This document shows, piece by piece, positions 13,875 through 40,633 of a stretch of DNA of 64,000 nt (within the stretch, counting starts at the first letter, position 1; each line of letters opens with the position of its first letter). The DNA is from Saururus chinensis (lineage: Eukaryota > Streptophyta > Magnoliopsida > Piperales > Saururaceae): positions 8,675,001-8,739,000 of the forward strand of contig CP141148.1 of NCBI GenBank assembly GCA_035235625.1, in the 5' to 3' direction. Under the pieces are notes generated by a model. The model ran no database searches. It was not told where the DNA came from and saw only the letters and a program-made list of their open reading frames with translations. A program made the translations under genes and the position numbers.

Positions 13875-14351
13875 ATGGGACGATCCTTTACCCTTGCAAT
13901 CCTTTTCATTACAGTGCTTTTTGCACCTCATATAACCCAAGGTAGATAAGTTTATGAGTATGCCGTTTTCCTGTATTTTGATTTTTTTTTACAAGCAGCC
14001 ATGTTATATCTCATGCAGGACTAGAGTGGAGTGGGAAGAAATACAGGAGAGAACTAGCCTCTTTACACACATCAGAGGTAGATTTCAATCTTCAACCATT
14101 TTCCTTTGGAGGCATTTCGCATCTTGTGGCTCTTGTCTATGCCAGCTCTGAATTCTAGTCATCATGGGTCGTGTTAGCTGGAGTACGAGGAAGGAAAGGT
14201 TGCGAGGATACTTGGTGACTACCATCCACCCACACCTAGCAGAAACAAAAGACCGGGGCCGCCGCCTGACACCCGTCCAGAGCCTACCTCTGATTCCGAT
14301 AACTCTCCTGATCCCGCTACCCCACCGGAGGCGGAGGCACCTCCTGAATGA
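13875..14351 (+). CDS. Small secreted peptide precursor, copy B (99 aa, three exons)
   Basis: Not a gene I recognise by name. Exons 13875-13941, 14019-14077 and 14178-14351 with GT-AG introns of 77 and 100 bp join in frame to 99 residues. Exon 1 is a clean signal peptide (MGRSFTLAILFITVLFA, then PHITQ). Exon 2 gives GLEWSGKKYRRELASLHTSE, ending at a basic-rich KKYRR site. Exon 3 gives LEYEEGKVARILGDY followed by HPPTPSRNKRPGPPPDT and an acidic, proline-rich tail ending PPEAEAPPE. A Tyr preceded by Asp and followed by Pro/Asn/Arg resembles plant sulfated peptide hormones (PSY, RGF/GLV, CIF types), but no family consensus is met exactly. The same three-exon structure and length recur at 40172-40633, which supports the model. 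Likely secreted; role unknown, perhaps cell-cell signalling. Confidence 0.72.
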
Positions 14352-15010
14352 ACTAGGATGCTCTCCCTTGTTGCTACAAATAATTAAAGATCGAATGTCT
14401 CATTAAGGAATACATTATCTCCAGTGTAATGCATATATATACATGTGTGTAATAACAGGAAGTGGTTTGGACTTTCTGATACTTGGATAGATTGCAGCAT
14501 CATATATCTTATTTGTACTTTCTGATTCTTGCTGTTAAGAATAAAAAAGGTCGATATTTTCTACATGGGCAACTCCATTTTCTGTATATATGCAGTGTTA
14601 TTTGTGTGTTAGCTGTCTCTGACTCTCTATAAGCCGGCTTATCTGGATCATCAGGCAAAACTAGTTCACGGACAACTCCATTTTCTGCTTGATGTATTAT
14701 GGAATTTGTCAAGTTTAATTTATTAAACCCCCTTGAATTTTTAAAAAATTTTATGGCTCAATCAACTGTTCAAACCTTGAATGAGGAAGAAACCCGTTTT
14801 CTCGTGTTGTTTTTACCACAACCAGATATTTATGAAGCACGATGAATTTGTAAGTAGCCAACAATACTTGTACGCCTGCACCCAAAAAAAAAAAATCGTA
14901 CGCGTCTACTTTTGATGCAAATCTGACTACACGGGAGCTTAGCGACACGCTTTTTAAGGATTATGAGTTGAGTAATGCGACGCGTCTCGCAGGACAATGT
15001 TTCCTACCAG
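14352..15010. other. 3' flank of peptide-gene copy B
   Basis: The first ~200 bp align with the flank of copy C and show the uninterrupted form of two sites that carry MITEs in copy C. The rest holds no gene; a 12-A run lies near 14883-14894. Confidence 0.6.
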
Positions 15011-15015
15011 GACCA

Positions 15016-15423
15016 TGTTGGGCTTTATTTTGTATTAAAACATAAGGTGGCCCAACTATCTCAATTGACACTGTTTTGGGCTTTTATAAAACTGTCTGGG
15101 TAATGGGCCTGAGTTAGAATACCCATTAAGCTGTGGTTTTAAGTGGCAAATCTGAACCGTTGGATGACCTATGGATGGACGGTCATGATTCTAGGGTTCT
15201 TAACAGTGGTGTCCTGGTTTAGTTATAAATACACCATTAGCCATCCTAATTCGGTGTCTTAAGCGAGATTGCTCTCAGCCAAATTCTAAACCAGAAATAC
15301 TATTGTGATTCTGAAGAAGATTAGTTGATTCTGAAGTGGATTAGCTGAAGATCAAGCTTACTTGAAGAGGTTCTCAATTACAATGACTACAGGTATGCCT
15401 AATCCCTGTATTAAAGTCTATCA
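15016..15423 (+). repeat. 5' LTR of the young copia element
   Basis: Starts TGTTGGGC, ends TCTATCA; contains a TTATAAATACACC TATA region. Matches 21872-22279 at 406 of 408 positions. Confidence 0.95.
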
Positions 15424-15424
15424 A

Positions 15425-15439
15425 TTGGTATCGGAGCAG
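15425..15439 (+). other. Primer binding site of the young copia element
   Basis: TTGGTATCGGAGCAG right after the LTR, the plant initiator-Met tRNA type of copia primer site. Confidence 0.8.
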
Positions 15440-15539
15440 ATTTATTTTGCATAGAACAAAATTTTACGGTGGACAGAATTTTTTCTCTGTTCACTGCGGT
15501 TATAATTTTTTTTATGATCCCATAGTTTACTATGTTCAT

Positions 15540-16370
15540 ATGGTATGGTTGGCTACAGCAATGTTACTGTCGTCGAAACCGGGCGACTGCCGAAAAACGG
15601 CCGGACTGTAGGCCGAAGTAGACGTGCCGGACAGAGCTGCCGCCGCCGGGCATTGAGTTCTGGCCGGCGTCGCCTCTGCACCGGCCGTCGGGATTTGATC
15701 CCACAATCCGGCGGCGATTAAAAAAAATTTGATTTTTTCTCGCCGCTGTGGGGTGGTTTTCGTATTTTTCCGGCCGCGGCGCTGGCCGGCGCCGCCGCTG
15801 CGCACAAAGCCGGTGTTTCCTTTGTTGTTTGTCGCCGCCGATTTCGAGTTGGAAGGCCCGCCGCTGCCCATTGTTGAAAGGAATCGGGGCCGGATTTGGA
15901 ACCTCCGCCATTGGGCGGAACTTTTTTCGGCCCCCTGAGCCACCGTCGGGAGTCGCGTACAGTCGCCGGGAATTTTTGTTTCCACTGTGCGTTTTTTTTT
16001 CCGATCTGCACCGTACAGGCCGCCGCGCTCCGTTTCATGGCCGGATCTGGAATCGTCGTCGTCGGACGGAAGTGTTCCCGGTTTTCGGGCTTGACGGCGG
16101 GCTACGACGGTCGACGGCGGGAGGCAATTTTTTTTTCCAGCAGGTCTGAGACCTCTCGCCCGTGGCGAGAGGTTGAAAACGACCTGCAGGAGCGGGTCGC
16201 CTCGACCCGCTTCTGCGGGTCGTCGCTGACCCACACTGGCGCGGGTCTGTTCTGACCCGCGCCCGGCGGGTTATCACTGACCCACGTCGCGGGTCAGCCG
16301 TGGCGCGGGTTAGTTGCTGACCCGGCCCAAACCGGGTCTCTAGACCCGGTTTGGTCTATTCCGGGGTGTT
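15540..16370. other. GC-rich leader core of the copia element
   Basis: Very GC-rich against an AT-rich background, full of CCG/CGG words, then an array of GGGTC/GACCC inverted words at 16.15-16.36 kb able to fold. Long frames exist on both strands, but they reflect base composition and match nothing known. Confidence 0.7.
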
Positions 16371-19300
16371 TTTTCTTTAAAAAAAAAAATTCTTTCCTTT
16401 TGTGGAATTTTTTTTATATCATATTGCATGTATGTTATGGATGTGTTATTTAATTATCATAATTGAGGCTTTATTCATGTTATGGGCCGGCCAGGGGATT
16501 ATATTGCAATCATATATTTTATCAATTTTATTTTTTAAAAATTGCTGAGCGCACCACTTATGTAATTTTAAGAGAGAGAGTATACATTATGCCTATTGTA
16601 AGTGACACCAGAATTCAAGGACCACGTCTGGAGGCGGATGCAGTCATGGAGTATTAATGTATATTTTTTCCATTTCAGGGGCTTATAGCTTCCAAATTGT
16701 ACTTTTTTTTAATGACTGTATAAGGACTTTGGACTATATTTTTATTTGTGGTGTGTGGTGATGGACCCCTTGGCCGAGTCCCAAAAGCCTGATGACAAAA
16801 TTGACATTAATGCCCCTGTCAATTTTGTATGGATATTCTTATGATTGTTTGATAATTAATTGCATTCATTTTGTTATTTGAAATGGTGAATAGCACAAAT
16901 TCAGTTCCTACATCCGTTGTGATAATTTATGAATGGCCAAAGCATCCTAAGTTATTTGTCAACGTGTGAATCATATAGAATGTTACCATGAGGTACATAG
17001 ATTCACATACATCAAAAATATTGTGCTATCATCAAATTCTGATTATGTGACAAAGACTGTCATCCGGCCCCAAAGGGAGGTGGTAGTTAGCGTTACATAC
17101 TTAGGATAGGGTGGAGGGTTATATATTTTAACATTGGTAAATCCCTATGCCCAAAGGTGTGAGATTTTTCTGTCATGTTTTATGTATAACCCACTAGCCT
17201 TATTATGAGACAAAATTAACATTTGTTTCTATATAGCTTAGTAAATTTGATGCAGATTGCAACCTTTGCCCAAAGGGAGGTTTACAATTTTACTATATGA
17301 TTTTAGCATTGGCTATTTCATACTTATGTTCTTGTTTCTTGCCTTCTTTAATGTTTGCATGTATTTATTCTTTTATTGCAGCTTATCCGTCTTTTATTTC
17401 TAACCCTAATCAGCACCTTCCATTATTATCTGGGGACAATTTTACAGATTGGAAGGAAAAAGTTCTTTTACTGTTAGGGTGCATGGACTTGGACTTGGCG
17501 TTTCGTATGGATGCACCCACCACTCCTACGGAAAAAAGTACGCCTAGTGAGGTAGCATCTTTTGAAAAGTGGGAGCAGTCTAACCGCTTAAGCATGATGC
17601 TCATGAGGTCTCACATCAATAAAAGCATTAGGGGATCCATCCCAGAATGCGCTACAGTCCAAGAACTTTTGAAAGCTATTGAAGCTCAATTCAAGAGTTC
17701 TGATAAAGCCTTGGCCAGCACCTTAATGTCCAAGCTGTCATCTATGAGGCTAACAGATGACAAAGGGGTGAGAGAGCATATCATGCAAATGCGTGATATT
17801 GCTAATCAGTTAAATAACATGAAAATAAAGATTGATGATACTTTTTTGGTCCACTTTATTCTGAACTCCCTGCCTGCACAATATGGGCCATTCAAGATCT
17901 CTTATAACACACATAACACTCAGTGGTCAGTCAATGACCTTCTGAGTATGTGTGTGCAGGAAGAGGGGAGACTTAAACAAGAGAAGCTAGAGAGTGCCCA
18001 TCTAGTTTCTCATAAAGGACAAAAGAAAGGTAATCATGGTGCTTCAAAGAAAAAAGCTGATAAAGGTGTACCAATGAAGTCTACTGGTGTCACGAAGGAA
18101 ACCAAATGCTTTTTCTGCAAGAAGAAAGGACACATGAAGAAAGATTGCCCTAAGTATCAGAAGTGGCTTGCCAAGAAAGGAGGTAATTTCATGTCTTTAG
18201 TATGTTATGAATCTAACTATGTTAATTCTCATCATAATAACACATGGTGGATTGACTCTGGTTCTACAATCCATGTTTCCACTGTCATGTAGGGGTTTCT
18301 CAATCTAAGGAAACCAAATGATGGGGAGCACAATATTTATTCTGGCAATAAGATGTGTTCGAAGGTTGAAGGTGTGGGGACATATAGACTTGTTCTCCAT
18401 ACAGGATACACCTTAGATTTAGAGAGAGCTTTCTATATTCCAAGTTTTTCTAAAAACTTAGTTTCTGTATCAAGACTAGTGCCTCATGGCTTTAATTTTC
18501 AGTTTATGAATTCTTCATTTCTGATTATTAAAGATTCAGTCACCATTGGTTCTGGTTCTTTGATTGATGGCTTATATTGTCTCTCTCTGCATGTTTCCTT
18601 TGAACAATCTATGATGTCTGTGCAAGGAAGTGTTATTAAAAAGAACTCCTCTATGTTATGGCATAGGCGGTTGGGGCATATCTCCATTGACCGCTTAAAA
18701 AGATTAGTAAGAGAAGGAGTTTTAAAAACTCTTGATTTTACTGATTTAGAGACATGTATAGACTGCATAAAGGGAAAGCAGACTAACAAGTCTTCTAAGG
18801 GTGCTAAGAGGCATAATGAGAAATTAGGCACCATACACACTGATATCTGTGGACCGTTTAGTACTCCCTGTCTGAATGGTCAAAGGTATTTCATTACCTT
18901 TATAGATGATCATACTCGATACATGTATCTTTATCTCTTAAATGAAAAGTCTGAAGCATTTGATGCTTTCAAGACTTATAAGGCAGAGGTAGAGAAACAA
19001 TCTGGATTGAGTATCAAAATTGTTAGATCAGACAGAGGAGGGGAATACTATGGTAGGTACACAGAGAGTGGACAAAAACCTGGACCATTTGCACAGTTCC
19101 TGAAGGAAAATGGTATTGTTGCACAATACACAGTACCAGGCACACCACAACAAAATGGTGTTGCTGAAAGAAGGAACCGCACTTTGATGGATATGGTAAG
19201 GAGTATGATCAGTAACTCCTCTCTTCCTCTCAATATGTGGAGTGAAGCCTTAAAGACAGCCGTGTACATTTTAAATCGAGTTCCATCTAAAGCCGTTCCT

Positions 19301-21871
19301 AAAACATCCTTTGAGTTATGGAATGGATGGAAACCTAGTTTAGATCATGTACAAATTTGGGGTTGTCCAGTTGAGGTTAGGGTGTACAATCCACTTGAGA
19401 AGAAGCTTGACCCTAAGACTATCAGTGGATTTTTCATTGGCTATGCAGAAAGGTCTAAGGGTTATAGGTTTTATTGTCCATCTCACACCCCTACAGTAGT
19501 CGAAGCAAGGAATGCACGTTTTCTTGAGCAAGGCAACTTTAGTGGGAGTATTTCCCCCAAACACATTGTGTTTGAGGAAATACGGGTTCCAGTTGTTATA
19601 CCCACATCCGGTGGAGGAACATATACTGCATCACCAATGGTGATTCCAGAGCAGCCTCTCCTTCCTTCACTATCCCCTCAGGAACAAGTTGTTGAAGTTC
19701 CTATTGCACAGGCACCTCTGCTTGTTGCTGACATAGGACTTCGAAGGTCCTCAAGAGTAAGGAAACTTGCACTCCCTTCTGACTATGTTGTATACCTCCA
19801 GGAGTCTGACGAGAATGTTGGACTCATTCAAGATCCTATTACATATTCACAGGCCATGTCTGGAGATAACTCTAGTAAATGGTATGATGCCATGCAGGAT
19901 GAGATGAAATCTATGGCTGATAATCAAGTCTGGGATCTCGTAGAGTTACCGCAGGGCGCTAGGACTCTTGGTTGCAAATGGGTCTATAAGACCAAATTAG
20001 ATCCATCTGGTAACATTAGCAGATATAAGGCCCGACTTGTAGCCAAAGGTTTTCTTCAGAAAGATGGTGTTGACTATAATGAAACCTTCTCTCCAGTTTC
20101 AACGATGGATTCATTAAGAGTTATTTTGGCCCTTGTAGCTCATTTTGACTTAGAGTTACATCAAATGGATGTCAAGACGGCATTCTTGAATGGGGATCTT
20201 GAGGAGGAGGTGTATATGATTCAGCCTGAAGGATTCACCTCAGATAAAGGAAGTCATCTGGTTTGTCGACTCAAGAAGTCAATATACGGACTGAAATAAG
20301 CCTCCCGACAGTGGTATTTGAAGTTCAACGATGTTATTACTTCATTTGGTTTTAAGGAGAACATTGTTGATCAATGCATATACCTTAAGGTTAGTGGGAG
20401 TCGCTACACGTTTCTGGTCTTGTATGTTGATGACATTCTACTTGCAAGCAGTGACTTAGGGATGTTGCACCAGACTAAGCAGTTTCTTTCTCAGAACTTT
20501 GACATGAAAGATTTAGGAGAGGCTTCCTGTGTCATAGGGATTGAGATCTATCGTGATAGATCCAGAAGGATCCTTGGGTTGTCTCAACAGGCCTATATCA
20601 ATAAAGTTCTGAAACGGTTTAACATGGAAAACTGCTCACCTAGTGCAGCTCCTATTGTGAAGGGTGACAAATTTGGCCCGTTCCAGTGTCCAAAGAATTC
20701 TTTGGAGTTGGACAACATGAAGGACATTCCTTATGCATCGGCAGTTGGTAGTATGATGTACTTGGAGGTCTGTACAAAACCTGATATTGCCTTTGCTATG
20801 GGAATGCTGGGTCGATACCAGAAAAATCCAGGGATGGATCATTGGAGAGCTGCAAAGAAGGTTATGAGGTATCTGCAAGGAACGAAGGATTACATGCTTA
20901 CATACAGACATTCTGATCGTTTGGAGCTGGTTGGATATACAGATGCAGACTTTGCTGGTTGTGTTGACTTGAAAAAGTCGACATCGGGTTATATTTTCCT
21001 TTTGGCAGGTGGTGCTGTCTCTTGGAAAAGTATTAAGCAAACCCTTACAGCGTCGTCGACTATGGAGGCAGAGTTTGTTGCTTGTTATGAGGGCACGTCA
21101 CATGCTACTTGGCTGATGAACTTTGTCACAGGACTTACTATTATGGATTCCATATTTAGGCCGTTAAAGATGTTCTGTGATAATAGTGCTGCTGTATTTT
21201 TCACGAAGAACAACAAGAGTGGCAGTCGAAGTAAGCACATTGACATCAAGTATCTTGTTGTTCGGGATCGTGTTAAAGAAGGGACAGTTGTTATTGAGCA
21301 TATTGGTACTGAGCTTATGGTTGCTGATCCCATGACTAAGGGCTTACCCCCTTCTCTGTTTAAGAGTCATGTGGATCGTATGGGTCTTATTAGCTCATCG
21401 TGCATTTGATTTTGCTTATGTACTTCTGGACTTTACTCATTTATCATAGCGATTCTGATTAATTTTCTCGTTGTGTCTCATTTTTCAGTGCACTTCAGTA
21501 TGAGACAATATTTGCAAAATGAGTGGGAGCATGCCTTCACTCATAAATATATTTTGTCACATATAGCAATCAAATAGAATGAATTAGTTGCATCGTGATA
21601 CATGGAAGAGAATGTTCTCCTTTGAGGACATAACCGCCTTGATTCATGCGATTATGACATTTTGTAAGAGTATAAAGTTACCACATACAGTTCGAAGGGT
21701 ATTGTTTTTTCAAACATTGTATGCGCATACGAAAGTCATTTTAAAGTTTCCCATTACCCACTTGGTTATTTTTTAACTAAAATATTTTTTCTCAAATTTA
21801 GTTTAATTGAGCCAAGTGGGAGATTTTATTCTTTCTATGGCTCAATTGAGAAGTTGTGCCAAGTGGGAGAA

Positions 21872-22279
21872 TGTTGGGCTTTGTTTTGTATTAAAACATA
21901 AGGTGGCCCAACTATCTCAATTGACACTGTTTTGGGCTTTTATAAAACTGTCTGGGTAATGGGCCTGAGTCAGAATACCCATTAAGCTGTGGTTTTAAGT
22001 GGCAAATCTGAACCGTTGGATGACCTATGGATGGACGGTCATGATTCTAGGGTTCTTAACAGTGGTGTCCTGGTTTAGTTATAAATACACCATTAGCCAT
22101 CCTAATTCGGTGTCTTAAGCGAGATTGCTCTCAGCCAAATTCTAAACCAGAAATACTATTGTGATTCTGAAGAAGATTAGTTGATTCTGAAGTGGATTAG
22201 CTGAAGATCAAGCTTACTTGAAGAGGTTCTCAATTACAATGACTACAGGTATGCCTAATCCCTGTATTAAAGTCTATCA
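21872..22279 (+). repeat. 3' LTR of the young copia element
   Basis: Same sequence as 15016-15423 with two substitutions; followed by the GACCA duplication. Confidence 0.95.
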
Positions 22280-22284
22280 GACCA

Positions 22285-23661
22285 TCGATATTTTATATAT
22301 TGATAGTGCATATATTAAGTACATATTAATGTAAGTAATATTTATATTAATATATACGTAATTAATTTTGTAAATGAATGGTTCCTCTACATACCTTAAT
22401 TAAGTTAAGTTTATTATCAAAAGTATAAAAAATGCTTCTATCAAATAATAGCAATCTAAGATTATTGGTAAATTCTTTTTTCTTACTAATTTGTAATTTT
22501 TTTAGATTATTTTATAATTTTATTTTTCATTTGATTTAATAAAAGAGAGCTTTCTCCCTTTTTATTTGATAAAAAAAGAATAGTAGTCAGAAAAGGCCTA
22601 CGGTCTTGTGTTCACACCTCAAATGTTTTCTTACCCAAACTTTATTTTAACATTAGCATCAATATCGCTAATACTTATACATGTGTCATCGATCTTAGAA
22701 ATAAATGGTCTCTAGGTATTCCTTATGTTAGGCTCATAATAAAAAAGTATGAAAGACTCTTCTTAGACAGATGGTGACTCTAAAAATCTTATATTAATAT
22801 ATAGGTATAGTTATAATATTATTCTTTCTCTTGGGTGGGAGAGTTTGGTAACAATAACTTTATATATTAAATTCCAATATTATGATGTCAGTCATTAATG
22901 AACAATGTCAACAATGTACCACGAAAGTGATTAGAAAAACAACCATATCATACAGGGTTAAGTAGGTAGGCCCGTTCTATATAAAGTCAGAGTGGTATTT
23001 TTACTAAAGACAAGCAAGCAATAAAAAATAAATTATCCCCTCAAAAGATAATGGTATAAAAAATTAGAAAGAAGTCCAAACCTACAAACCCTTATATTCT
23101 ACTCCCGTCATAATTTGTTCTCTCAAATGCTAAACTCCATTCGTACTTGTTCTCACAAGCATCAAAGGTCTAAAGCGAAATGGGTCACTGGTCGTCTTCA
23201 ATCCTCCGCCTTTACTAGTCCTTAAGTAAAAAAACTAAATTTAAAGGGAAGGTTGTACCTTGGGGGAAATCCTAAAGACAAGATTTATGTGTTTGTCTAT
23301 TCATTTGCTTCCTCACTTCATTCTTATTGTATAATGACAATGTCTGCTCCTGTTACATTATCTATATTATTTGATTATTTTGATTAAGGTAAAGTATGTT
23401 GTAAATATAATTTATTAATTTAATAGCTTTCGTATTCAAAGTCTCTAGCTTTCTTAATAACAAACTTCTCATGTCCTTGAAGTTTTGAAGGTTATTTATT
23501 TATGAATTTACAACTTAATTTTTCTCTCATTACTAGAAAACCCTATTCAATTTATTATGCATTCTAAAAAATGATTAAGAGTTATCACTAATTTAACTTG
23601 TCTACTACTTAAATTAGTATTTTTATTTAGAATAAAATATTATTTATATTTATGCCATTAG
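22285..23661. other. Intergenic, nothing recognised
   Basis: AT-rich with no gene or clear repeat. A piece near 22.70-22.76 kb resembles one arm of the 13.1-kb foldback. Confidence 0.4.
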
Positions 23662-26600
23662 TGTGACACCCTGTATTTTCAAGAAGAAAATTAATTCATT
23701 TTATTTCTTTAAAATGCTCCTTTTGTTCACTAGCAAGTCATCTACACTTCAATGACCTACCGATGAAATAGCATAATGTTATTATCGACAAGCATTGACA
23801 TGTCAATAGCTTACCGATAATAACTTCATACATCGGTTATTTCAAAAAATGAGTCATTTTTACACTTTTTAGACTCTTAAAGTAATTTTCCTAGTATAAA
23901 ATAGAGTGAAACTCGGAATTGGGAGAGAACAAAAGTCTTAGAGGGGTCCTAGCACCGGTGTGAGTGACCAGAAGGAGACTTTATATCATAGATGAGAAAT
24001 CTCACTTTGATATAGGTCGGATTGCAATCTACTCTTTGAAATAGACAAAAGCATTTATAGATTTTTTATTTTCTTCAAGCTCTCGAGGATGTATGATTCC
24101 TGAACTTGAACCGATTTTAAATTCATTATATTTAATTACTTTTATGTGGTTTAAGCCGTTTATGATCAATTTTGATAATTTTTGAAAATAAAGGCAATTT
24201 CCAAAGGTTTTAAAGAAAAATATCTTCATATTTGTGAGTTTTAAATGAATCCAAACCATTTGTGAATTCTGGGGAATTTTTAGATTTTTTGCATATTTTT
24301 TAAAAATTAGGGTTTGGCGGGACCCCCTGTGGGCCACATGTCGAATTTGGGGGTTTTGGTCTAAAACATCTTAGACATCAAAATAAGTCATTACAAAAAA
24401 AATTAGAATTTTTCTAGCCCTAATTAGAGTTTAAATGACCAATATACATAAATTTCGTTAAATGTTTTATTCTCATCTGAAGCTTTAATTAGGTATAGCC
24501 CATCCCTTCCTATAAAAGGAAAGAGGCTGACCTTTTCCTATTTGAGAAAGGGCTGAGCTAGGAGATTTGGAGCATAATCCCCAATTAGGCCCAAAGAGGA
24601 AGTGGTTAGAGGTAAGATTTTCTTAATCATTACTTAATCTTTAGGGTTTTCCTTAAAATCCTCTTAATTTTATCATCCTCCGTTGATTCAATCCATTTTT
24701 AAAGCATTAAATCACTGTTTTACTCCTCTACCTCAAACCCTAACCTTTAAATTTTTGATTTTATGCGCCTAAGTTCTAGATCTAGGATTTGTTTTATGAT
24801 TTTCAAGTCTAAATCAAGTTTAGGCATGTTTTAACATAAAAATCTTATTTTTGGAAGGTTTTGGAGGTGATTGAAGTATTAATCCGACTTAAATCAAGTG
24901 GAGAGGTAATGGGATTTCATCTCAGCCTTAATATGTATGCAAATCTCAATTTTTTATGTGTTTTGATTGTATGGGTTTCATATTAAGGGCTTTAATGGTG
25001 GATTTGCACAAAGTTAATCTTTTGACTTGATTACTTAGGGTTTTGATTTTAAATGAGTTGATTTAATGTTTTAGAATGTTTAATTTGATTTTAATGGTGT
25101 ATGAGGCTTGAAATGAAGATTTTAAACTTAATTAATGGTGTCTCGGTTTTGAATTTCGGAAGGAAGAAGAAGACCTGAATCTGCCTTGTTGGTGATCAAT
25201 CGGGCCTAGTGGCCAATTGATCGGCTACACGGCAGATTTGGCCCATTTGTTTGTTATGTTCATTTCGGTGTTTTTGCTCCAAAATGATGTTTCTAATGTT
25301 TATATGGAGTATTTTGAGCTAGATTAAGCTACTGGAAGGGTATGCTACTTATGTCAGTATTTATGAAACATGTTTAAGTATTTTGTAAAATTACATGCGA
25401 ACAGTTAGACATGTTAACATTGATTATCTTAAACTTATGGGTGACGAAACTCTTATGTTCTAAGTATGTTTCTAGCAGGGTTATTGTATGATAATGAGAT
25501 GATATGTTATCTTATAATATGAATGAATTGTGGGTGAATGATGATATCATGTTCTAGCTTCATGTGTAGAATAATCATGCTTGTAAGAGTTGAACATTTG
25601 ATTCTATATGAATAGAATGATGGTTTATGTTAGATTTTACCATGATTTCAATTGAAAATTATTATTAAATTTTTATCAAAGCATGAGTGGATTGCCTTAT
25701 GAGCTATTGTCAAAGCATGGCCATGTGTTTAGAAATGTATAAACACACACATGAGGGGTATTTGCTATGAAATCGTGGTTGTTTATGATTCGAATATGAT
25801 GCATGTGGGGACTGATGAGAGTACGTTCCATGTATGAGAATTCACTTAAAACTTGCTCACGTATGTATCATGAATTCATGCATCATGAAACGGACTTCAT
25901 AAATGAGTATTTGTAGATGATTAGTCATGGTTGATCGATTGTATGCAATGATGTGGGATTGCATGCCAGATTAATCGATTGTTGGCTTGATTGGAACTTG
26001 GTTGGTCCAAAAGGACATGATTTTGATTTGAGTTCCTATGTGGAACATGTATACTCCCCGGGTTGGGTCAATTTGAATTGTTAATGCGATTGAGATTTAT
26101 TTATTAAGACAATCAAATCTGGACCCTAAAAATCCAAAGTGGTATGCCTTTGTGCACCGGCTATCACATGTTCTAGTTAATTCTAACTCTTCCACCGCAG
26201 AGATGTCCAGAGCGAATACATTGCTCCAGTTAATTCGGACATTTCTAGCCCAAACTGTCTAGAGCGAGCATACCTGCTCTAGTTAATTCAGACTTCCCGT
26301 GTAGATTGTCCAAAGCAAGCAAAGAGGCTAACTACCCCTATATCCTAGTTTTTCATATGGAATTCGGACTGTGTCCAGAGCAGGTGATATGATTGTATTC
26401 CTCTCCATGATGGAGGCATTCACCATTTGATGATAATACATGTGTATGAGATAATATTATGCCTAGATTTCATAGGTTGTGTAGGGATATTTGAGATTAT
26501 GTGACACATGTGGATGTAATTTATTATGCATGATCTTGATGTAGTGTGGTTTAGACACTTGTCATGCAGAAGAATGAGCTATGGAATGTATGAGATTTAT

Positions 26601-28312: not shown

Positions 28313-28519
28313 TGTGAAGACTTGAAAGCTTATGTTTTCATTTCATTCACAGGGTATAAGTAGTGTTTACATAGTACAGTTGTAGGGATTGAAATCCCTT
28401 TTGTTATGGTATTGGTTTAGTAAGTTATAACAATCAAGGAATCTATATTTGACTAGAATCACAACAAATCAGTCGGTGTATCTTTGTCCATATCCTTGCT
28501 TGTGGTGATATCGCCCATA
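28313..28519 (-). repeat. 3' LTR of the nested-host copia element
   Basis: On the minus strand it runs from TATGGGCGATATCACC to CAAGTCTTCACA. About 90% identical to 35073-35280. Confidence 0.8.
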
Positions 28520-30299
28520 TCCCCCCTTAAGCGGAAGGAGGGAAGCGCCTGAACTGTGAGCTTGTCACATAGAGTGAGGGCTAGGGAGGTACTTGGTAAA
28601 AATATCAGCAAGTTGATGAGTGCCTGGAATGTGGGCGAGCCGAATAGTGCCATTAAGAACATGCTCCCAAATAAAGTGAACATCGATATCAATATGCTTT
28701 GTACGGCTGTAGAATATTGGGTTTTTAGACATGTGAAGAGCACTAATATTGTCACAATATAGAGTAGGAGGAGGGACCAAAGATATGTGAAGAATCTTAA
28801 AGAGATAAAGAAGCCATATGATTTTTGTTGTGGTTGAGGCAAGGGCACGATATTCAGCTTCAGAGTTGGAGCGGGAAACTGTTGGTTTCTTCTTGGCACC
28901 CCAAGAAATCAAATTGGGACCAAGAAAGAGGGCATAGCCAGTAGTAGATCAATGACTATCAGGACAACTAGCCCAGTCGGCATCAGAGAAAGCATGTAAG
29001 GAGAGTGTCTTGTGACGTTGAAAAGTGAGCCCAAAGGTGAGAGTTCCCTTCACATAGCAGAAGATTCTTTTAAAGGCCTCAAGATGAGAAATGGTGGGCT
29101 TGTGCATAAATTGACATACATGACTAACTTCAAAGGCAAGATCAAGTCTACACAGAGTAAGATATTGAAGAGATCCCACCATTTGACGATAGAGAGTTGC
29201 ATCAGGAAGAATAGATGAGCCATGGGCAAAGAGTTGAAGTCCCGCAGCAAGGGGGTTGTTGACAGGCTTACTCTAGACAAGCCAAAGCTGTCAAGAAGTT
29301 GGAGAGCATATTGAGCTTGAGACAATACAAGTGTGGAACGGGTCTGATGTACTTGCATGCTGAGGAAGAAATGAAAGGAGCTCACACCTTTCATATCAAA
29401 GGCCTGTGATAGTGTGCAGATGAACTTTTTAAGAAGAAGAGGAGTATTACAAGTAAGAATGAGATCATCCTCATAGAGTAATAGGAACATAGTTGTAACA
29501 ACCCATTTTCCGGTTACGCTTAACCTGGGGGGTTAAGGGTAATTTGAAAAAAGTATTAGGGGGTTTCAAGGGATGAACTCCCTATGTTCAGTTAGATCTC
29601 AAAGTAACGAGAATAATGAATTGAAAAATATTCAATACGGAGGTCGGGAGCGAAAGCTATGACCTCGGGAAGCATGCCACATGTGAAAGACCCACTTGAA
29701 AAGAGCAGGATAACCTACACTTGTTGTCTTGGTTTAAAGGGCTCGTCGATACGAGTCTATAGGTACCAAGAACGCTCGAATCCGACTTTGAGGTAGGAAG
29801 TTATCGCGTGTTGAAGTTTGCATATTTTTGAAAAAATATGTTGAAAAATATTTTAAAATAATGAGATAAGGACAAAATAGCTGGCATAATTACCAATGCC
29901 AACAGCCACATCAGCCGCATTGCTGGAATGTGGTGCGGCACCGCGTGGTGGGGAGCTTGCCGACCCGCGAAATCGCAGGCCGTCCCGCATTGATGCATGA
30001 TGGGCTACACGTTGGCCTGCCCGTCAGCGTGATGTAGGCTGATTCCTGTGCAATGTGAGGGAGCCGCGCGGAATGACCAAGCTTGTTACGTACGTGGTTA
30101 GCTCATCGAAGGCGTGCGGGCGCGGTTCCTTTTCTTGTACGCTCACAGGGTTTCTTCTATAAATTGGAAATCTCGTTCAACGTCCGGAGGAGTTTTTGAC
30201 CCATTCTGAGTTTGTTTTCTTCTGTTGTTGAGACATTCCTAGATAATTCGAGGGTGATCTACGCAATGACATGGTTAATTCCTTCAGTTGGCATCCTTA

Positions 30300-30930
30300 A
30301 AAGGGAAGAACAGCTCAGGGCAAGAGGAGGCTCTGTCTGCCACCCTCATGCCTCGAGGAGAGAGAAGCGGCCTGGAGAGAGAGAGGCTATATCCTCCGAC
30401 ACCAGGCTGCATCGAGAGATGTGGCCCGGAGAATGGGAGGCTTCATCCTCCACCGAAGGGCCTTGGAATGTGAGAAATGCCTCGGGTTAGGGGACATTCT
30501 GTCCACGGGTTATGAGCGCGGAAAAGAAAAACTTTGGGAAAGGGAGGTTCTGTCTGCGGCCTATGGGTTCACTGTGTTAAGTGCCACTGGGAAGGGGGAG
30601 GATCGGCTCGGGGCAAGGGTTAGCTTTGTCCGCCAACCTCGTACCCTGAAGAGAGAGAATTGGCCCGGGAAAGAGGAGGCTCTGTCCTCTGTCACCGGGC
30701 CGCAACGAGGGAACTGGTTTGGAGTAGGGGAGGTTTTGTCCTCCACCGAAGGGCCAAGCAGTATGGGGAACATCCCCGAGTAGGGGAGGTTCTATCTGTT
30801 GCCCATGGGTACAGAAACATAGAAGAGTCTCCGAGAAAGGGGAGGGTGTTGTTTGTCTCATTCTGGCACAATGAGAGGAATGTGATGGAGCTAGAGAAGG
30901 CTCTGTTCGCTGCCTCTGGATTGGAAGGGG
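30300..30930 (+). repeat. Minisatellite, ~60-bp units, inside the solo LTR
   Basis: About ten diverged units built on GGAGGCTCTGTCCTCCACCG and GAGAGAATTGGCCCGG. Purine-rich and more GC-rich than the flanks. The open frames through it follow the repeat rather than a gene. Confidence 0.65.
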
Positions 30931-31330
30931 ATGACACTTCTGGATCTGAAGGGGAGGACACCCAAAAGGAACGAACATCTCCAAAAGCCACTACTTCTCG
31001 GGACACCAGGGGAATAAGCATTTCCTTACCATTCGATTTAATTATATGAATGCATGCGCTAATTAGGATATACATTACACTTTGATCCCTTGTGTTTTGA
31101 TATGCTATGCAATGATCTGTCATGTTTTGATATGTTATGCTTTGAAGTGACTAAATATGCTCTGGAGCGAGACATGTGATGTGTTTGGTCTTGCTCTGGG
31201 GTAGAGCAAGACGTGTGAATGTGTTTGGATCTGCTCTAGGGTAGAGTGAGACATGTGATGGTATCCGTGTGGTGCTTGGCTGTATGATAGAGCGAGATGT
31301 GTGTTCTGGTGATTTATCGGCTTCCGTATA

Positions 31331-33413
31331 TGTCATGTCCCGGGATTTTATAAAATATATAAAGAATTGAAAAGTAAAATCAGAGCTTGCTCAGGTCGTA
31401 ACCAGGAAACATATAACCATAAACATAACATGATATACTTTATTTCCCAGGAAATATATTGTATGTGTACAAATACATAAGTAAATATATAAACAAGTCT
31501 TCTCAAGCCAAAAAAAGATGAAATATACTTAGAAAACTACCGGTGTAATCGTAGACTCTGTGGTCACCACTTGAAGCTCCCAAAAAGTATCTTTACTGCT
31601 TTACTCTACACCCGTCTATTCCACACCGGGCCCTGCAAGGTCTGGGGGGTGGTGAGTATTTTAAAATACTTAGTAGGAGTACTTATCCTATCAGACATAA
31701 ATATAACATCTCACAGTTTGTAAATCACATAATTAAGTAAATAGATAATACTTTTTGAGAAGCAGTAAGGGTGTGCCTCTCACCAAAAACTTCTTAAGGG
31801 CTTCTTCCAGCGTTTCGAAGATGCTTCTAGGGTTTATAAGCTTCACGGCTTACTAGTGTCCTAGATACATATTATATTATAAAGAATTTATTGCGGGTAC
31901 AATGCAACGACCTCTTACTCCTTTACAGATTGTTCGTAAAACACTTCATGCTTATAGAGGGAAGAGCAACCTGTGCTGATGGGGCACTGGATCTAGAGAT
32001 TAAAGAGTTTTGCCATGATACTCTCTACCCTAGCATGCGTAGCCTTGATAGTTGACATTCATTAGGGGTGAATCAGGGGTCTTGCCCTTCATTAGGGGCT
32101 CACGAGGCTAATATACGTACCATGCATCCGATTCCAAACCAGATTGTACTGTGTACTCTCCATTATGGAACTCTATCAGTACATTTACCAATCTGAGCCC
32201 CAAATTATTAAATTTCTTATATTTCCTGACTAGAACGGGAACAATCTTTCACAAAGAACAACCTTTCAAAATTCTAGCATTGCCTTTACAAGGCATGGTC
32301 GTGTTACCTATAACGATTATAAAGGTAGGGTTAGTCGCTCGTTCCAACGAGACAGCTACCCCTTCTCTATCTCATCTCAGTAACTTGGTCGTCATGATTT
32401 TATGTATTTCAAAAATTATTTTGATAAAGCACTAATTCTATAAAACCGTCTTTCAATCTCACCATACTCAAGGATAATTAAAATAATGACGAAGCTAGAC
32501 TTTATTTATATCACATATAGAATAAAGTATAATTTAAAAGATAACTACTCGATAAAACAAATATATGAGGCAATCCAAGAAACATATATGGAAATTACTC
32601 AAATATTTAACTATAATTATATATAAACTTTAAAAGACAACCAATGTAAGTATTTATGTCTTAAGAGAGGATAAAATCCCCTACCTTGTTTTCTGTACAA
32701 GAAAATAAACGATACTCTGGACAGCCCAAAATTAAATGTCAGATTCCTAAGCAGTAGAGATCTCAAACTAGAAAAATAACTCCGCCACGACATTCAACAT
32801 ACTTGATTTAGGTAGAAATGCCTCTTAAACAACTCAAATCGGACTTAAAACGAGTAAGAAACGAATGAAAAGAAGTTTCTGAATGTTCTAAATAAGAATA
32901 GAAACAACTATTTATAAGGAAATGGGGCTGACGCACATCTGACGCATGTCTGACTAACTTACGCGCGTTAGACATGCGTCATAATTATGACACATCTATT
33001 TTGACATGTGTTAGATTTCTGAGGCTGCATATCTGATGTGCGTTAGATTTCTGACGCGTGCATATTACACATGTCAGATTTCTGACGTTGCCACGTGGTA
33101 TATTTATTTTTTATTTTCAAAATTTGAAACTATGATATCTTTTTATCCCGTAATCGGAATTGCAAATTCTTAGTACCGATGGACTCATATCTATGAGCCC
33201 TTTGAAACTAGACCCACATGGGTAGGTTGCTCTGCACTATAAAATAGGCCCCACCCATATAACAAGTTTCCCGAGGTCATAGCTTTTGCTCCCAACCTCC
33301 GTTTTGCGTGTTCTTCAGTTTGTTACGCTCGTCTCACCGAGCTCTATTCAATACACCTAACTTTTACCACAAAAAAAATATAAAAAGATTATTTAAAAAC
33401 TATGGATGTTACA
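31331..33413 (-). mobile_element. Second solo LTR, inverted, inside the first
   Basis: On the minus strand it runs TGTAACATCC to GGGACATGACA, 2083 bp, with flanks GTATA and TTATA (four of five bases match, probably an aged target duplication). A TATA-like TTATAAATAG on the minus strand near 32.92 kb is followed by a leader. No coding domains. Confidence 0.75.
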
Positions 33414-35072
33414 TTATAATTCCAATTAAATATTCAGATATATGTAATTTGACGTATGTGTCTTCGTAGTGCCTGATATATGTAATATCTATTAAGCAAA
33501 ACTACGTATGGATCCAATCAAATCGGAGTAACATCGTAGATGTTATTCGATACGTATGTAGGCAACCAACGACAAGGCAATGTTGGCCCGATCTAAATTA
33601 GTTATAAAAATAAGTATGTTCTGGCCTATGCGCAATGAAGCGCTAAAGTTCTGTAGTGCGTAGAGAACGTGAAGACTTGCACTTAGAGTCCGCCACTCCT
33701 AGTTTTGGTTTTAATTTTAATTTTTTGGATAATTCGGAGTGCGGGTTATCCCCTGTGAACCCTGGCTCGGGTCAGTTTCCAAGTCGGGGCATTATAATAG
33801 TATCACAACCACGATGCCATATGAAGAAAGATGTGTCATGAAGGCACATAAAGGAACAGATGCAATAGAATCAGTACAAAGACCATTACCATTGCCAACA
33901 AGTACGCGATCAATACCAGAATATGGAATCATACCCTTGGCCTGAGAGGAGTTGGGTGTCATATGATGAGATGCACTTGTGTCCGGATACATGTCGAGTC
34001 TGACTGATCAGAAAGATGAAGAGCAGCAAGGGCTTCGGCTGAATCAGATTGGGAGGTGGACACCTTACAATTATTAGCCTTGTGATTAGGATAGCCACAC
34101 TTATAACGGTATACAAAGGAGGTATCACTGGTGATAGGAGCAGCACAGGGTCGTCCTCGACATGAAATGGCATTGCGGCCCCGGCTATCACCCCCATTAC
34201 CACGCCGAGCAGAAGAGGAGGAACCGTGAGAAGGGTGGGTAGCGGGCCGGATGCCATGGTTACTAGGTGACGAGGAATGTGGTGCACTGGTACGACTTGA
34301 GAGAAGTGCAATAGAGGAGAGAGAGGCAGATTGATGGTTATGAATCCGATGTTTGAAATTAGAAAGGGTACCAACAACATCATCCATTGAAGGGAGAGGC
34401 TAAGCCAATTGAATGGCAGTGACCACAATGTCATACTCAGACGGTAGGCCTTGAAGGAGGAGGAAGATCAGGTCATCATTTGTCACGTGGTCATTGGCTA
34501 TGGCAAGAGTGCGGGAGATAGCCCGAGCCTGATGCACATACACAAAGTTTGAGAGGGTGCCCTTGGAAAGGGAATGGAGCTCTCATTTGACACTTTGGAA
34601 ACGGTTGTGCATCACAGTGCCGTATGAAACTTCAAGAGTGGACCAAATCTCAAAGGCAGAGACGCAGTGCACAACCTGAGGATGTATATCCTCGGAGAGA
34701 GAGGAAGCAATCCAAGCAAGCACCATTTGATCCAACTGGAGCCATGCTCGGATGGCTGGATCAAAGTCGGATCCTTTGGGGCGCTTCAAAGTTCCCTGCA
34801 CAAGACTGAGAAGGCCATGGCAGTGAAGGACCGGGAGGACCTGTATCTTCCAAACCAAGTAGTTGGTAGCAACCAGCCAGGAAGCAATTTCTTGAGTGAT
34901 AGATTTGACAATTGGCAACGTGGAGGAGACAAGGGCAATGCCAGAATCCATCGGGGAGGTAGTAGAGTCATTGCTGATAATGGAAGGGGAGGCGGCCATG
35001 TATATGGAGAGGGTGGGCAAAGCAACGAAGGAAAAAAATGCAGCTAGGAAGGATTGTCTAGCTTTGATATCA

Positions 35073-35280
35073 TGTGAAGACTTGAAAGCTTATGTTTCCA
35101 TTTCATTCAGTGGGTATAAGTAATGTTTACATAGTACAACTGTAGGGATTGAAATCCCTTCTATTATGGGTATAAGTTTAGTAAGTTACAACAATCAAGG
35201 AATCTATATTTGACTAGAATCACAACAAATCTGCCAGTGTATATTTGTCCATATCCTTGCTTGTGGTGATCTTGCTCATA
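35073..35280 (-). repeat. 5' LTR of the nested-host copia element
   Basis: On the minus strand it starts TATGAGCAAGATCACC and ends CAAGTCTTCACA; followed by the primer-type site. Confidence 0.8.
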
Positions 35281-35879
35281 ACTTCTACTTCACAACACTT
35301 GAATAAGGTGACTTTATGAGTCAACTCTCCCTTAACATTAGACAACTGCACTGAGAAAAATATTGAGAATGATTCCAGGTACAAATGGTGGTGACCAAGA
35401 ACAAAGATATGTCTTCAATGAAACAACCAGTTTGGAAGACCTAAGTTCGCCTTTTCTTCAAAGTAAAAAATAAAAGAATCATTCTCTTCTTCCTCTTTTG
35501 TTTGTTTTTTGCTGCATGATTTAATTTCTCTTGGTAAAGTATTGTGGTTACTCTAAGTAACAAAATTCAAGGATTTCATCATTTCCAGTTTGAGTGTCTC
35601 AATCATGATATATCAATAACTAAAGGATGTATAGATAAACAATTGGGCAAGATGGATGTATCCAATCAAACCAAAAGGTCATCCAATTTAACCCGTTTCC
35701 ATCTAATTAACTTATTAGCTTAAAATGGATCATATGAACATCACCATTATATGCCTTATACCGGTAGAATGTGTATATTCTCCCCAAAATATGCTTAAAG
35801 CCCCCATTGCTTATACACCCAAAAAAAATCAACTATGAACTCATGTATACCCCTCCTCACCCCATATATATTTTAAGTT
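35281..35879. other. Intergenic, nothing recognised
   Basis: AT-rich spacer right of the copia element, beginning with the ACTTC target duplication. Confidence 0.4.
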
Positions 35880-36445
35880 ACCTTCTTCTCCAACTTTGGC
35901 GGTGACAGTGGCAACCCTACTCTCTTCTCCCCTCCTCTTTTTTTCTGATTGGATCTAGCCTTTCATGCAGCCAACTGTTGCTAGCTATGGCCACGACCAG
36001 ATTTGGCATGGGTGCGACTTTGCACCAATTTGTTGTTAAAGATGCTCCCGCCCTCGATTGCCACATCAAACCTCAATGACACCTGAACCCAATAAAGTCC
36101 ATGCTTGCTCTCACCATCTCCTTGGTGTGGTTCCAAGTCCCATCAAACACAATCAAATTAATAATTTATTCCTCTCTGACATACCCTAAGGGGAATTGAT
36201 GAAGTATAGTGAGTGGGTGTAGGGGAAATGGTGAGGAATGGAAGGGAAGAGGTAGAGGGCGTGGGGGAAGGGGAGGGAGGAGAGGTTGAGAGCAAGTCAA
36301 GGAGGGTGGAGGACTCATGGCGGCGACAAGCAATGGTCTAGCCGCAATGGAGGCATATGGACAAGATAGGAGTGGTGGAAAGCCGTTGGCAAAGCTCGTT
36401 GGGGTGGTGAAGGACGACGAGTTGGGTGACTATGTGAGGGACTCC
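35880..36445. repeat. Unclassified dispersed repeat, copy 2
   Basis: Shares the GCTCGTTGGGGTGGTGAAGG region with 7431-7927. A G/A-rich stretch at 36.19-36.31 kb precedes it. No gene recognised. Confidence 0.4.
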
Positions 36446-39170
36446 TGTAAGATCTCTAATTTATTTTTCTTTTTAATTTATGTGAATTTGTTTGTTTATT
36501 GGTTTAATTTAATTTTTGGGGTAATGGGTTAGTTTAATTATAACTTTCTTAAGGTTTAATTTTATTTTAAAAATATTAGTGTCAAGCTTGATTCACACAA
36601 TTTTCTACCATGAGACCCACGTCCGTGTGGGATGATGTGCTACCCATTTTGGTTGCCAACCTTCTTTTGATTTGTCTAACTGGGATTGGGTGTGATTAAA
36701 TTCGTTTTTGAGTTAAGAGTGTACTTAAATGGTAACTTAAGGCCTTTTTACCAATTTTCCAGCCCAACAATTTAATTCTCAGTTTATAAATCATACTATA
36801 AAAAGAAAAACCCTAGCCATTTTTCAAATGGGGAATAGCTAAAAATAGAATGAAGATGAAACTCTACCCCTATTTCCCACAGGAGAAACCCTTTGTAAGG
36901 TAAGGCATTCCCCCTTAATCACCACTTAATCTTTCAATTTTTATCTTAATCATTTCAATCATCACTTTTCCTATTTAGATTCTTAGTCTTCTTCCATCAA
37001 AATCATGTTTTTAAATCCGATTTAGAACCATAATTAGGTTATTTTTTTGTATTTAATCTGAGGAGGTTTTGAATCTATCATCTTCTAAATTGATTTGAGT
37101 CCATTAATTAGTTTTGATTAAAATTCACCAAAAGCCCTAATATTTTGTAAGATTTCTTGAGGTTGAAGCTCGTTCAAAGAATTCACAAGCTTGATAGGAG
37201 TATGGGGTTTTCTTTCTAAAAGGTTTTTGTCCTTCAAATGTTATTATTGTGGGTTTCTTTGAACTTTTGATTCATCTTGATGTGTAATGGTAATTTACTA
37301 AAAATATGTGATATATGGCTGTTTTTGTATGTTTAAACATGAAAAATGTTAGATTTATCACATTTTAAGCTCATGTAATCATTATATGAAGTTTCATGAA
37401 ATTTTAGAAAATTTTATTAATTTTTAGAAGAATTCCAGTTCAGTTTCGTGAGGTAGAAGATGACTATTTTGACAGTTCTATTTTGACCGTTCAATCACCC
37501 TGTGGGCCAATTGAACAACCAGTCGTTCGAATGGGATGGCAGGTTATTTGAACGACCAGCAGTTCAAACGGGCCATCAAGCCGTTCAAACAACCAAATAG
37601 TTCTTTATTTTGGATTCATAACTATGTTTCAGATACTTTTACTTTGAGTTTTGCTCTCAAATTTTTTTTAAGAATAGATTATCATGTCTAGATTATATTC
37701 CTATATTTTAGATTTTTTTGGAATAATATTTATTTTTTATATTTTTGTAACGTGTTGTGTAGTAAAACAGTGCTCCATTTCCGTGTTTAGAAGCATGTTT
37801 AGGGGTAAAAAAATATAATTTTTAATTCATTCTTTTTAAGATGAATTGATATATATTTTATGAGCATGCTATGAAAAATTAAAGTTGTTTAGAGCACAAT
37901 AAGATAAGGGCATAGTCATAAATTTGAAGGTGGATGATTTTGGCAGAACTTCATAGTCTCATTAATTAAATGAAAAAAATAATTATTGGTACTTATTTTT
38001 ATATGAGATTTATTTATATGTTAATTAAGACTATGATGTAGGTCTCAATCAATTTTTACAGTGATTGGAGTTTATTTTCTATTTTTTAAAAATGTACAAG
38101 TTGCATGTAGTGATTATGTTAAAACATCTACTTAAGCTAGTATGGGATAAATGAACATATATGTAATTTTAAGTGGTATTTTGATAATTTATTTATATTT
38201 ACTCCATAATTTTAGTAGATTATGACTATGATGAATTATGAATACTTGCACATCTCACATTAATTATATATGAACCATGTTCCACATGTTTTAGCTTAAA
38301 TATGAGCACGTGCATGTATGTATATTTTACTCATGCTTATATGATTTTATTTGTTATAAATGGATTATATTTCATGTATATTAGGAGTGATTAGAATAAG
38401 TTTACCTATGCTTGTATTTATTAAACATTATTCATGGATGTATCATGTCACATGTATCATGAGAATGACTTATAAGTAAATATTACTCGTGTTTGACATG
38501 ATTAATTGATTTGATATCTTAGTATTCCGGATTAACAATATCAGAAGTCTATCGAATTGGTTTTACGTCAATTGGATGAGGTTTGATGTTCCTTTGATGA
38601 CAGGTTTCTTCCTTAAGTGAGAAGAGCAAAATGTTATAATGAGTTAAATCAATGAGTATTCATGGACATAAGAATTTAGGTTGGTTAGTCCATGTGTACC
38701 TGCTTACTAGGGGGTACTTTCCCCATTGAAATTTACCCATACATTCCTAATTTTTCTTTTTAAAAATTCAGACTTCCTTGTTATAATTTTCAGGGTGAGC
38801 ATGTCTGTTTGTGCTTCGGCCAAAATAAGCATAGTTGTTTTCTTTATTGTGAGACATTTACCTGATTATTTATGCATGTGTATGGATTATAATGTTCATT
38901 GACACAGTTTGTGCGAGGACAATAATGCTTATGTTACACATAATATATATGAAAATGTAGGATAGAATGTAATTTGACACACTTGATTATGCAGGGTAAA
39001 TGTGAATGCTGATGATTTCTTCGTACATGATGTGAATAAACTATGAAACTTAAATAATTGTACAAAATATGCATGTGGGTATACGGGTTAATATAGAGCT
39101 TGTGCATATTATTAATGATCATTGTGATCCAAAAAATAATGCGCGGGCGCATACACACACACACAGGAAA
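36446..39170 (+). mobile_element. Long LTR-like relic, relative of 23662-27924
   Basis: Starts TGTAAGATCTC, has a TATA-like ACTATAAAAAG at ~36.80 kb, then a leader and a CCTTAATCACCACTTAATCTTT stretch that aligns with ~24.61-24.64 kb. No coding domains; the right end is unclear. Old. Confidence 0.45.
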
Positions 39171-39179
39171 TAATTAATA

Positions 39180-39356
39180 TGAGCCCGGGCTCACGCACAT
39201 CGGCGTGCGCCCGGGCTCATTGGGCCGTCAGATGTATATCCGATGGCCCATCAAACTCACGGGTTTAAATACCCCGTGAATTTGATGGGCCGTCGGATAT
39301 AAATCCGATGGCCGAATGAACTCGGGCGCACACCAGCGTATGTGAGCCCGGGCTCA
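39180..39356. mobile_element. Near-perfect palindromic GC-rich MITE, 177 bp
   Basis: TGAGCCCGGGCTCAC at the left is matched by GTGAGCCCGGGCTCA at the right, and the pairing continues inward through GGGCCGTCAGATGTATATCC / GGATATAAATCCGATGGCC and GATGGCCCATCAAACTCACG almost to the centre. TA flanks both sides (39178-39179, 39357-39358). Inner GAGCCCGGGC copies are also present. No coding capacity. Confidence 0.8.
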
Positions 39357-39360
39357 TATA

Positions 39361-39737
39361 AACTAGACTCATATATATATATATATCATATAAAGTATAA
39401 TAATACACATTACAAAGAAACTTTGTGACGCAAAATAGCCTCGGAGACGAAATCCTCTCAAGAAAAATTAATAAGACCACCATTCAACATCATCATCTTT
39501 ATTAGGGAAGAGTTTTTCATTTTTTTTGTTTTATTCTGACAACAAGTCTAGTGTAAGAAACGCATAAAAGTCATTCATCTACGTGGTATTAACGCTAACG
39601 ATATTAATCTCAAATGTTAAAATTCTCATATATTTCTTATAGTGGGCTCATTATCGCAGTATAGCATTAAAGGTTGCCCTTTGTTAGTTACTTCGTTGGT
39701 TACTGCCTATAATATTAAAAAGAATGGGTCTAACATG
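39361..39737. other. Distal upstream region of peptide-gene copy C
   Basis: AT-rich; includes a short TA repeat at 39.37-39.39 kb. It shares GGGCTCATTRTC-type words with the same place upstream of copy B. No gene seen. Confidence 0.4.
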
Positions 39738-40114
39738 GGGTCAAAGGGAAAGCTACCTAGCAGCCAGAAACTAGACTCGCTAAAAATGGTCTCACATACA
39801 TCTCATCAATCGCATTAATTTTGCAGGTTAAACAAGGAAGTAGGTGCACCATCCACGGGGTGGTCAAGCCCCATTAAATATACATACATATCTGCTGACT
39901 TTACTCGCGAGTCCTCCTGCAAAATGATTTCCCTCACAACTCCAAGACGAACTTCCTGGAAACATGCCATCCGATTCCTATTGGTTTACTGAATAAAATG
40001 GAGCTATCTATCCAACGGTTCAATGCGTTGAGCCTTAAATCCATCAACATCGCAGACCATCGGAGACAAGTCTGCACCAGCTATCAGAATTTGTACTATA
40101 TGGAAGCTCGCATG

Positions 40115-40123
40115 TATATATAA
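40115..40123 (+). promoter_or_regulatory. TATA box of peptide-gene copy C
   Basis: TATATATAA, 57 bp before the ATG, within a block (39738-40171) conserved with copies A and B. Confidence 0.7.
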
Positions 40124-40171
40124 CTCAAGTGGCTGGCTCAACTTTCATTTGTATTTGAGATTAGCAGAGAT

Positions 40172-40633
40172 ATGGGACGATCCTTTACCCTTGCAATCCT
40201 TTTCATTACAGTGCTTTTTGCACCTCCTATAACCCAAGGTAGATAAGTTTATGAGTATGCCGTTTTCCTGTATTTTGATTTTTTTTTACAAGCAGCCATG
40301 TTATATATCTCATGCAGGACTAGGGTGGAGTGGGAAGAAGTACAGTAGAGAAGTAGCCTCTTTAGATACCTCAGAGGTAAATTTCAATCTTCAACCATTT
40401 TCCCTTGGAGGCATTTCTCATCTCTAGCTCTGAATTCAAATCGTCATGGGTCTTCTTAGGAGGAGAACCAGGAAGGAAAGTTTGCAAGAATACTTGGTGA
40501 CTACAATCCACCCAGACCCAGCTGGAACCAGAGATCAGCACCGCTGCCGCCTGACATCCCTCCAGTGCCCCCTTCTGATTCCAAATACTCTCTCCATCCC
40601 GCTTCCCCATGGGAGGCAGAAGCACCTCCTTAA
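40172..40633 (+). CDS. Small secreted peptide precursor, copy C (99 aa, three exons)
   Basis: Paralogue of 13875-14351 with the same exon lengths (67, 59 and 174 bp): 40172-40238, 40318-40376 and 40460-40633, GT-AG introns of 79 and 83 bp, total 99 residues. Signal peptide MGRSFTLAILFITVLFA then PPITQ. Exon 2 reads GLGWSGKKYSREVASLDTSE. Exon 3 reads EENQEGKFARILGDY, then NPPRPSWNQRSAPLPPDI and a Pro/Ser-rich tail ending WEAEAPP. Exon 1 differs from copy B at one base and intron 1 only by a 2-bp indel, while exon 3 differs at about one base in five, mostly changing amino acids. The GDYxPPxPSxN core is kept, suggesting it is the functional peptide, possibly released and Tyr-sulfated. No known family matches exactly; function unknown. 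Confidence 0.72.

Follow-up and report, generated by a model that had tools for sequence, protein, structure and literature searches.

The classes of plant sulfated peptides are tabulated by their features in PMC11534595. In the sections of the papers drawn on here, peptides of the PSY family carry the motif DYxxxx[AP]NxxHxP (PMC7913133, PMC11641228), whose five conserved residues are all present in 31 of 32 aligned sequences (PMC7913133). Departures from the motif occur: AtPSY9 carries Asp where the eighth residue should be Asn (PMC11534595), and the spacing in wheat TaPSY7 is shorter than that of the motif (PMC11641228). Wheat PSY precursors are 71-175 residues long and are encoded by genes with two or more exons (PMC11641228), and tobacco PSY genes have two or three introns (PMC12153210). 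For the maturation of PSY, a review has proposed SBT6.1, acting at RXLX/RXXL sites, and the Asp-directed SBT3.8 (PMC7913133). CIF peptides have 21-24 residues with Asn or His at the C-terminus (PMC11855783, PMC11534595). For CIF4 an extension at the C-terminus has been described (PMC11534595), and patchouli CIF genes contain one to five introns (PMC11855783). All 13 RGF-type peptides drawn from that table end in Asn and are usually 13 residues long, one member having Glu-Tyr (PMC11534595); most RGF genes contain introns (PMC8708909). Two introns are therefore ordinary in sulfated-peptide genes, and gene structure does not separate PSY, CIF and RGF.

Here we describe a locus in a 64,000-nucleotide stretch of Saururus chinensis DNA (contig CP141148.1, positions 8,675,001 to 8,739,000; hereafter the window) with two intact copies (A and B) and one dead copy (C) of a three-exon gene. 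Directly evident from the sequence are how the genes are laid out, that they are duplicated, that one copy is dead and that A and B share a near-identical 5' tract. Our preferred interpretation, to which we give about an even chance, is a local family of small secreted peptide-hormone-like precursor genes of the Asp-Tyr (tyrosine-sulfated) class, with a PSY-like layout and a diverged core.

Gene models and predicted precursors

Splicing and translation of copies A and B give 99 residues each from exons of the same lengths, and the borders are GT-AG at all four introns (Table 1). The preliminary description of two three-exon copies was exact on all these points, spans included. Its emphasis on identical length stands as a count, but the equality is not pure conservation. 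Copy B has one additional Leu codon and a TAA stop where the last codon of A is GAA; since the extra codon offsets the earlier stop, the equal length is partly coincidence, and we have dropped it as a sign of constraint.

Table 1. Features of the three gene copies, by position in the window.
Feature	Position	Strand	Description
A/B near-identical tract	13807..14024	+	218 columns; TATA box, 5' leader, exon 1, intron 1
Copy A TATA box	13818..13826	+	TATATATAA; 57 bases upstream of ATG
Copy A exon 1	13875..13941	+	67 bp; hydrophobic leader MGRSFTLAILFITVLFAPHITQ and first base of codon 23
Copy A intron 1	13942..14018	+	77 bp, GT-AG, phase 1, 68% A+T
Copy A exon 2	14019..14077	+	59 bp; remainder of codon 23, then LEWSGKKYRRELASLHTSE
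Copy A intron 2	14078..14177	+	100 bp, GT-AG, phase 0, 57% A+T
Copy A exon 3	14178..14351	+	174 bp including stop; VARILG, Asp-Tyr core DYHPPTPSRNKRPGPPPD, acidic and proline-rich tail
Copy B exon 1	40172..40238	+	67 bp
Copy B intron 1	40239..40317	+	79 bp, GT-AG
Copy B exon 2	40318..40376	+	59 bp
Copy B intron 2	40377..40459	+	83 bp, GT-AG
Copy B exon 3	40460..40633	+	174 bp including stop; FARILG, core DYNPPRPSWNQRSAPLPPD, tail
Copy C, dead	8740..9072	+	TGA at exon 1-2 junction under the same splicing; no second donor; exon 3 truncated before core

Intron 1, in phase 1, falls at the end of the leader, and intron 2 is in phase 0. Without splicing, the reading frame of each of the three copies ends after 24 residues, just beyond the leader, so that a longer protein requires the splice. 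The spacing from TATA box to ATG is the same 57 bases in all three copies, and in A and B the start codon has G at -3 and G directly after the ATG. The introns contain 57-68% A+T compared with 41-45% in the ligand exon, although intron 2 of copy A is not above exon 1 of the same copy (58%). In the joined coding sequence of copy B, where stops were counted, the true frame alone is open and each other frame has four stops; within exon 3, however, frame +1 is open as well in A and in B.

The leaders of A and B have a best 13-residue mean hydropathy of 2.7, starting at residue 5. Neither protein contains cysteine, Asp-Tyr lies at residues 56-57 of 99 and is preceded by RILG, and the last 42-43 residues include 15 prolines in A and 14 in B. 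The hydrophobic leader, the lack of cysteine, RILG before Asp-Tyr and the proline-rich core and tail fit precursors of plant tyrosine-sulfated peptides. A "clean" signal peptide had been claimed; the hydrophobic leader is there, and its cleanness is a matter of that hydropathy mean only. Small secreted peptide genes remain the best reading of the anatomy. The term "hidden family" exceeds the evidence, because intron-bearing peptide genes are known, the Asp-Tyr is that of an established class and no protein constraint is shown.

A search of Pfam-A with both proteins at E up to 10 matched no family, a result whose bearing on PSY and CIF depends on Pfam including such models. The PDB sequence search with copy A returned two rows, both mitochondrial ribosomal proteins (E 0.46 and 3.7). 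Pattern scans gave 34 matches in viral contigs (with copy A) and 125 in genome contigs (with the A-B alignment) and no confirmed relative in either, as expected for a plant gene. Six strings of the form GDYxPP occurred in none of the open-access papers searched, which is weak evidence, sequence strings mostly sitting in figures.

Duplication, decay and a shared 5' tract

The three copies are homologous, with 84% identity between A and B over 720 columns and 77% between A and C over 662. The duplicated segment measures about 0.8 to 1.4 kb, with similarity fading outward (roughly 13463-14558, 39718-41113 and 8245-9072, pieces pooled). When the window was searched by tblastn with the A and B proteins, no fourth copy was found, the best row beyond the three loci having E 0.098. 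Copy C is a dead gene copy, in agreement with the preliminary description. With T as the last base of its exon 1, the same splice gives TGA at codon 23; an 11-base gap deletes the end of exon 2 together with the second donor; and its homology stops at about 9072, upstream of the Asp-Tyr core. Inverted repeats of at least 14 bases number nine pairs in the segment of copy B, one in that of C and none in that of A. Eight of the nine pairs in B lie wholly in A+T-rich DNA 3' of the gene, and the ninth links intron 1 to that DNA. A mobile-element origin of the gene segment is not favoured, given the absence of such repeats from the A segment and the fading of similarity at both ends.

A Copia element with both LTRs lies between copies A and B (15016-22279). 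Its LTRs have 99.5% identity across a 409-base match (15015-15423 and 21871-22279), GACCA on both outer sides forms a 5-base target repeat, and the gag-pol frame has in-frame stops at 18290-18292 and 20297-20299. Copia-type pieces of reverse transcriptase (29050-29532) and gag (34583-35089) are found on the minus strand, and Ty3-type gag, protease and reverse transcriptase frames occupy a G+C-rich stretch at 60896-63065. Just 3' of copy B is a short palindromic element (40692-40802) with a CTCCCGTCCCAC end and TA flanks, which we take to be Stowaway-like; related pieces lie near 44855-44963. The window also holds the N-terminal part of a protein with a Pfam amine oxidase match (3618-4358, minus strand, E 3.4e-13), presumably plastid-type protoporphyrinogen-oxidase-like by our own reading of the sequence, and the C-terminal part of a protein kinase (59594-60097, Pfam kinase matches) that by eye is like a plant receptor-like kinase.

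The preliminary description of copies A and B did not include the 5' tract that they share. Within it the two differ at 2 of 218 aligned columns, a 2-base indel uncounted; overall they differ at 103 of 767. Divergence around the tract is 17-23%, and its flanks differ at 36 of 160 columns over 13590-13791 and at 63 of 367 from 14032 on (summed from bins). None of 5,000 permutations reached the length of the tract, the longest permuted run with at most two differences being 120. In intron 1, A and B show no difference in 77 columns apart from the 2-base indel, compared with 14 of 77 between A and C. The tract bears the signature of gene conversion, and recent ectopic conversion seems the better reading, because selection on the leader would not extend to intron 1. 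If so, constraint gains no independent support from the near-perfect leader or from the first donor and acceptor. Gene conversion would hold the promoter and leader alike, and the ligand exons of A and B would drift apart.

Coding constraint and competing interpretations

The coding sequences of A and B differ at 43 sites over 98 codons (16, 10 and 17 at the three codon positions). By NG86, dN is 0.140 and dS 0.237 for the whole coding sequence (98 codons) and 0.212 and 0.355 for exon 3; LWL85 gives 0.138 and 0.268, and dN/dS is about 0.6. When the 43 differences were re-placed at random in the coding sequence, the observed amino-acid identity was matched in 9% of trials for the whole sequence; the figure was 30% in exon 3 and 44% in exons 1 and 2. 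The BLOSUM score was matched in 27%, and no stop arose in 27%. The substitution pattern between A and B does not demonstrate protein-level constraint. Indels between the copies measure 3 bases in the coding sequence and 2 and 17 bases in the introns. GDY and the preceding ARIL are unchanged and the amino acid differs in 20 of the 56 exon-3 codons compared, a comparison of two sequences only.

The cores, stripped of Asp-Tyr, were compared by score with nine PSY, 13 RGF-type and five CIF-type peptides, leaving out the PSK rows of the table. In 18-74% of 500 trials a shuffled core had a mean score at least as high. For the PSY peptides, 23% (A) and 24% (B) of the 500 shuffles reached the mean score, and 27% (A) and 37% (B) the best score. 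Raw mean scores ranked CIF above PSY above RGF in both copies, CIF peptides being longer. Since shuffles score equally, the likeness beyond Asp-Tyr lies within shared composition, proline above all.

The reading as Asp-Tyr precursors is favoured by the spliced open frames, the 3-base coding indel, leader hydropathy, Asp-Tyr itself, TATA spacing, start context and the A+T-richer introns, and by the analogy of published precursors, which are of similar size, have a leader, a variable middle and a C-terminally placed Asp-Tyr, and come from intron-bearing genes. The weak substitution tests, a dN/dS of about 0.6, cores that score like their own shuffles and a third copy already dead count against it. 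Alternatively, the copies may be decaying PSY-type duplicates, a local array derived from a PSY gene and no longer under constraint; A and B would then be intact yet drifting, and C already dead. Such decay, which we consider unlikely but of real weight, would account for the presence of Asp-Tyr, P7 and (in A) P13 along with the absence of N8 and H11, in a family where 31 of 32 published sequences are complete, for the lack of significant protein constraint at a dN/dS of about 0.6, and for the dead copy C. It is harder to reconcile with A and B still being open, with every splice site kept and the coding indel in-frame, and the likeness to PSY beyond Asp-Tyr does not exceed that of shuffles. 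There is a smaller chance that the genes encode a distinct proline-rich small secreted protein (a cell-wall protein, glycopeptide or defence peptide) in which Asp-Tyr is incidental. The 42 residues after Asp, with 15 (A) and 14 (B) prolines, and the failure of any hormone family to beat shuffles would suit it; the unchanged GDY and ARIL beside so many altered exon-3 codons speak against it, though two sequences are few.

The other two alternatives are both very improbable. Chance could have left an open spliced frame in a non-coding or fossil duplicated segment, given that a second frame of exon 3 is open in A and B, that 27% of shuffles stay stop-free and that the window holds several retroelements. 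Against this, the leader, phase-1 intron, splice sites, TATA box, start context and in-frame indel are mutually consistent, and inverted repeats of at least 14 bases are absent from the A segment. Slightly less probable still is a CIF/TWS1-type peptide whose C-terminal extension needs removal. Pairwise alignment shows a likeness to CIF1, CIF3 and TWS1 in P-S/T around position 7-8 and in a PGP or AP-rich end, the raw mean score of this family is the highest of the three in both copies, and CIF4 has a C-terminal extension; the scores are nevertheless within those of shuffles, and neither Asn nor His stands 19-24 positions along from Asp56.

If A and B are precursors of the Asp-Tyr class, the leader of about 23 residues would be removed in the ER and Tyr57 would be sulfated by tyrosylprotein sulfotransferase. 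Subtilases may cut in the pro-region (at RREL, in A only, and at RILG, in A and B) and before Asp56, and the proline-rich tail would be trimmed. The product would be a peptide of some 13-19 residues in the apoplast, beginning with DY[HN]PP[TR]PS[RW]N and possibly perceived by a leucine-rich-repeat receptor kinase. A bolder version, which we consider improbable, is an unnamed tyrosine-sulfated hormone family with the core DYxPPxPSxN, whose short exons evade annotation and whose promoter and leader undergo ectopic conversion while the ligand exon diversifies. Should the genes be expressed, they would supply a divergent ligand for the sulfated-peptide class that governs root growth and the balance of growth and stress, and a small worked example of conversion at the leader versus divergence at the ligand. 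If not expressed, they are a caution that open small-exon models in proline-rich DNA alone prove little.

Comparison with known sulfated-peptide families

Copies A and B resemble RGF/GLV/CLEL genes in the Asp-Tyr start, the size of the precursor and the possession of introns, which are common in that family. They differ at position 13, where A has Pro and B has Ser instead of Asn; Asn stands at position 10 in both. This family has the lowest mean score of the three, and neither protein matches the RGF-like pattern DYxxPxxxPPxxN, a pattern of our own that is stricter than the family. With CIF/TWS1 they share the Asp-Tyr start and a proline-rich core, and CIF4 offers a precedent for a C-terminal extension; the difference is that positions 19-24 from Asp56, read by eye, contain neither Asn nor His in A or B.

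The pattern scan with the PSY motif matched neither of the two proteins. N8 and H11 are missing in both and P13 in B; A keeps D, Y, P7 and P13, and B keeps D, Y and P7. The layout is like that of PSY: a small precursor from an intron-bearing gene (99 residues, two introns), a hydrophobic leader as candidate secretion signal, a variable middle and, in the C-terminal part, an Asp-Tyr that is a putative sulfation site. PSY is accordingly preferred among the known families by analogy of layout only, and A and B are best regarded as candidate Asp-Tyr peptide precursors not assigned to a named family, possibly drifting.
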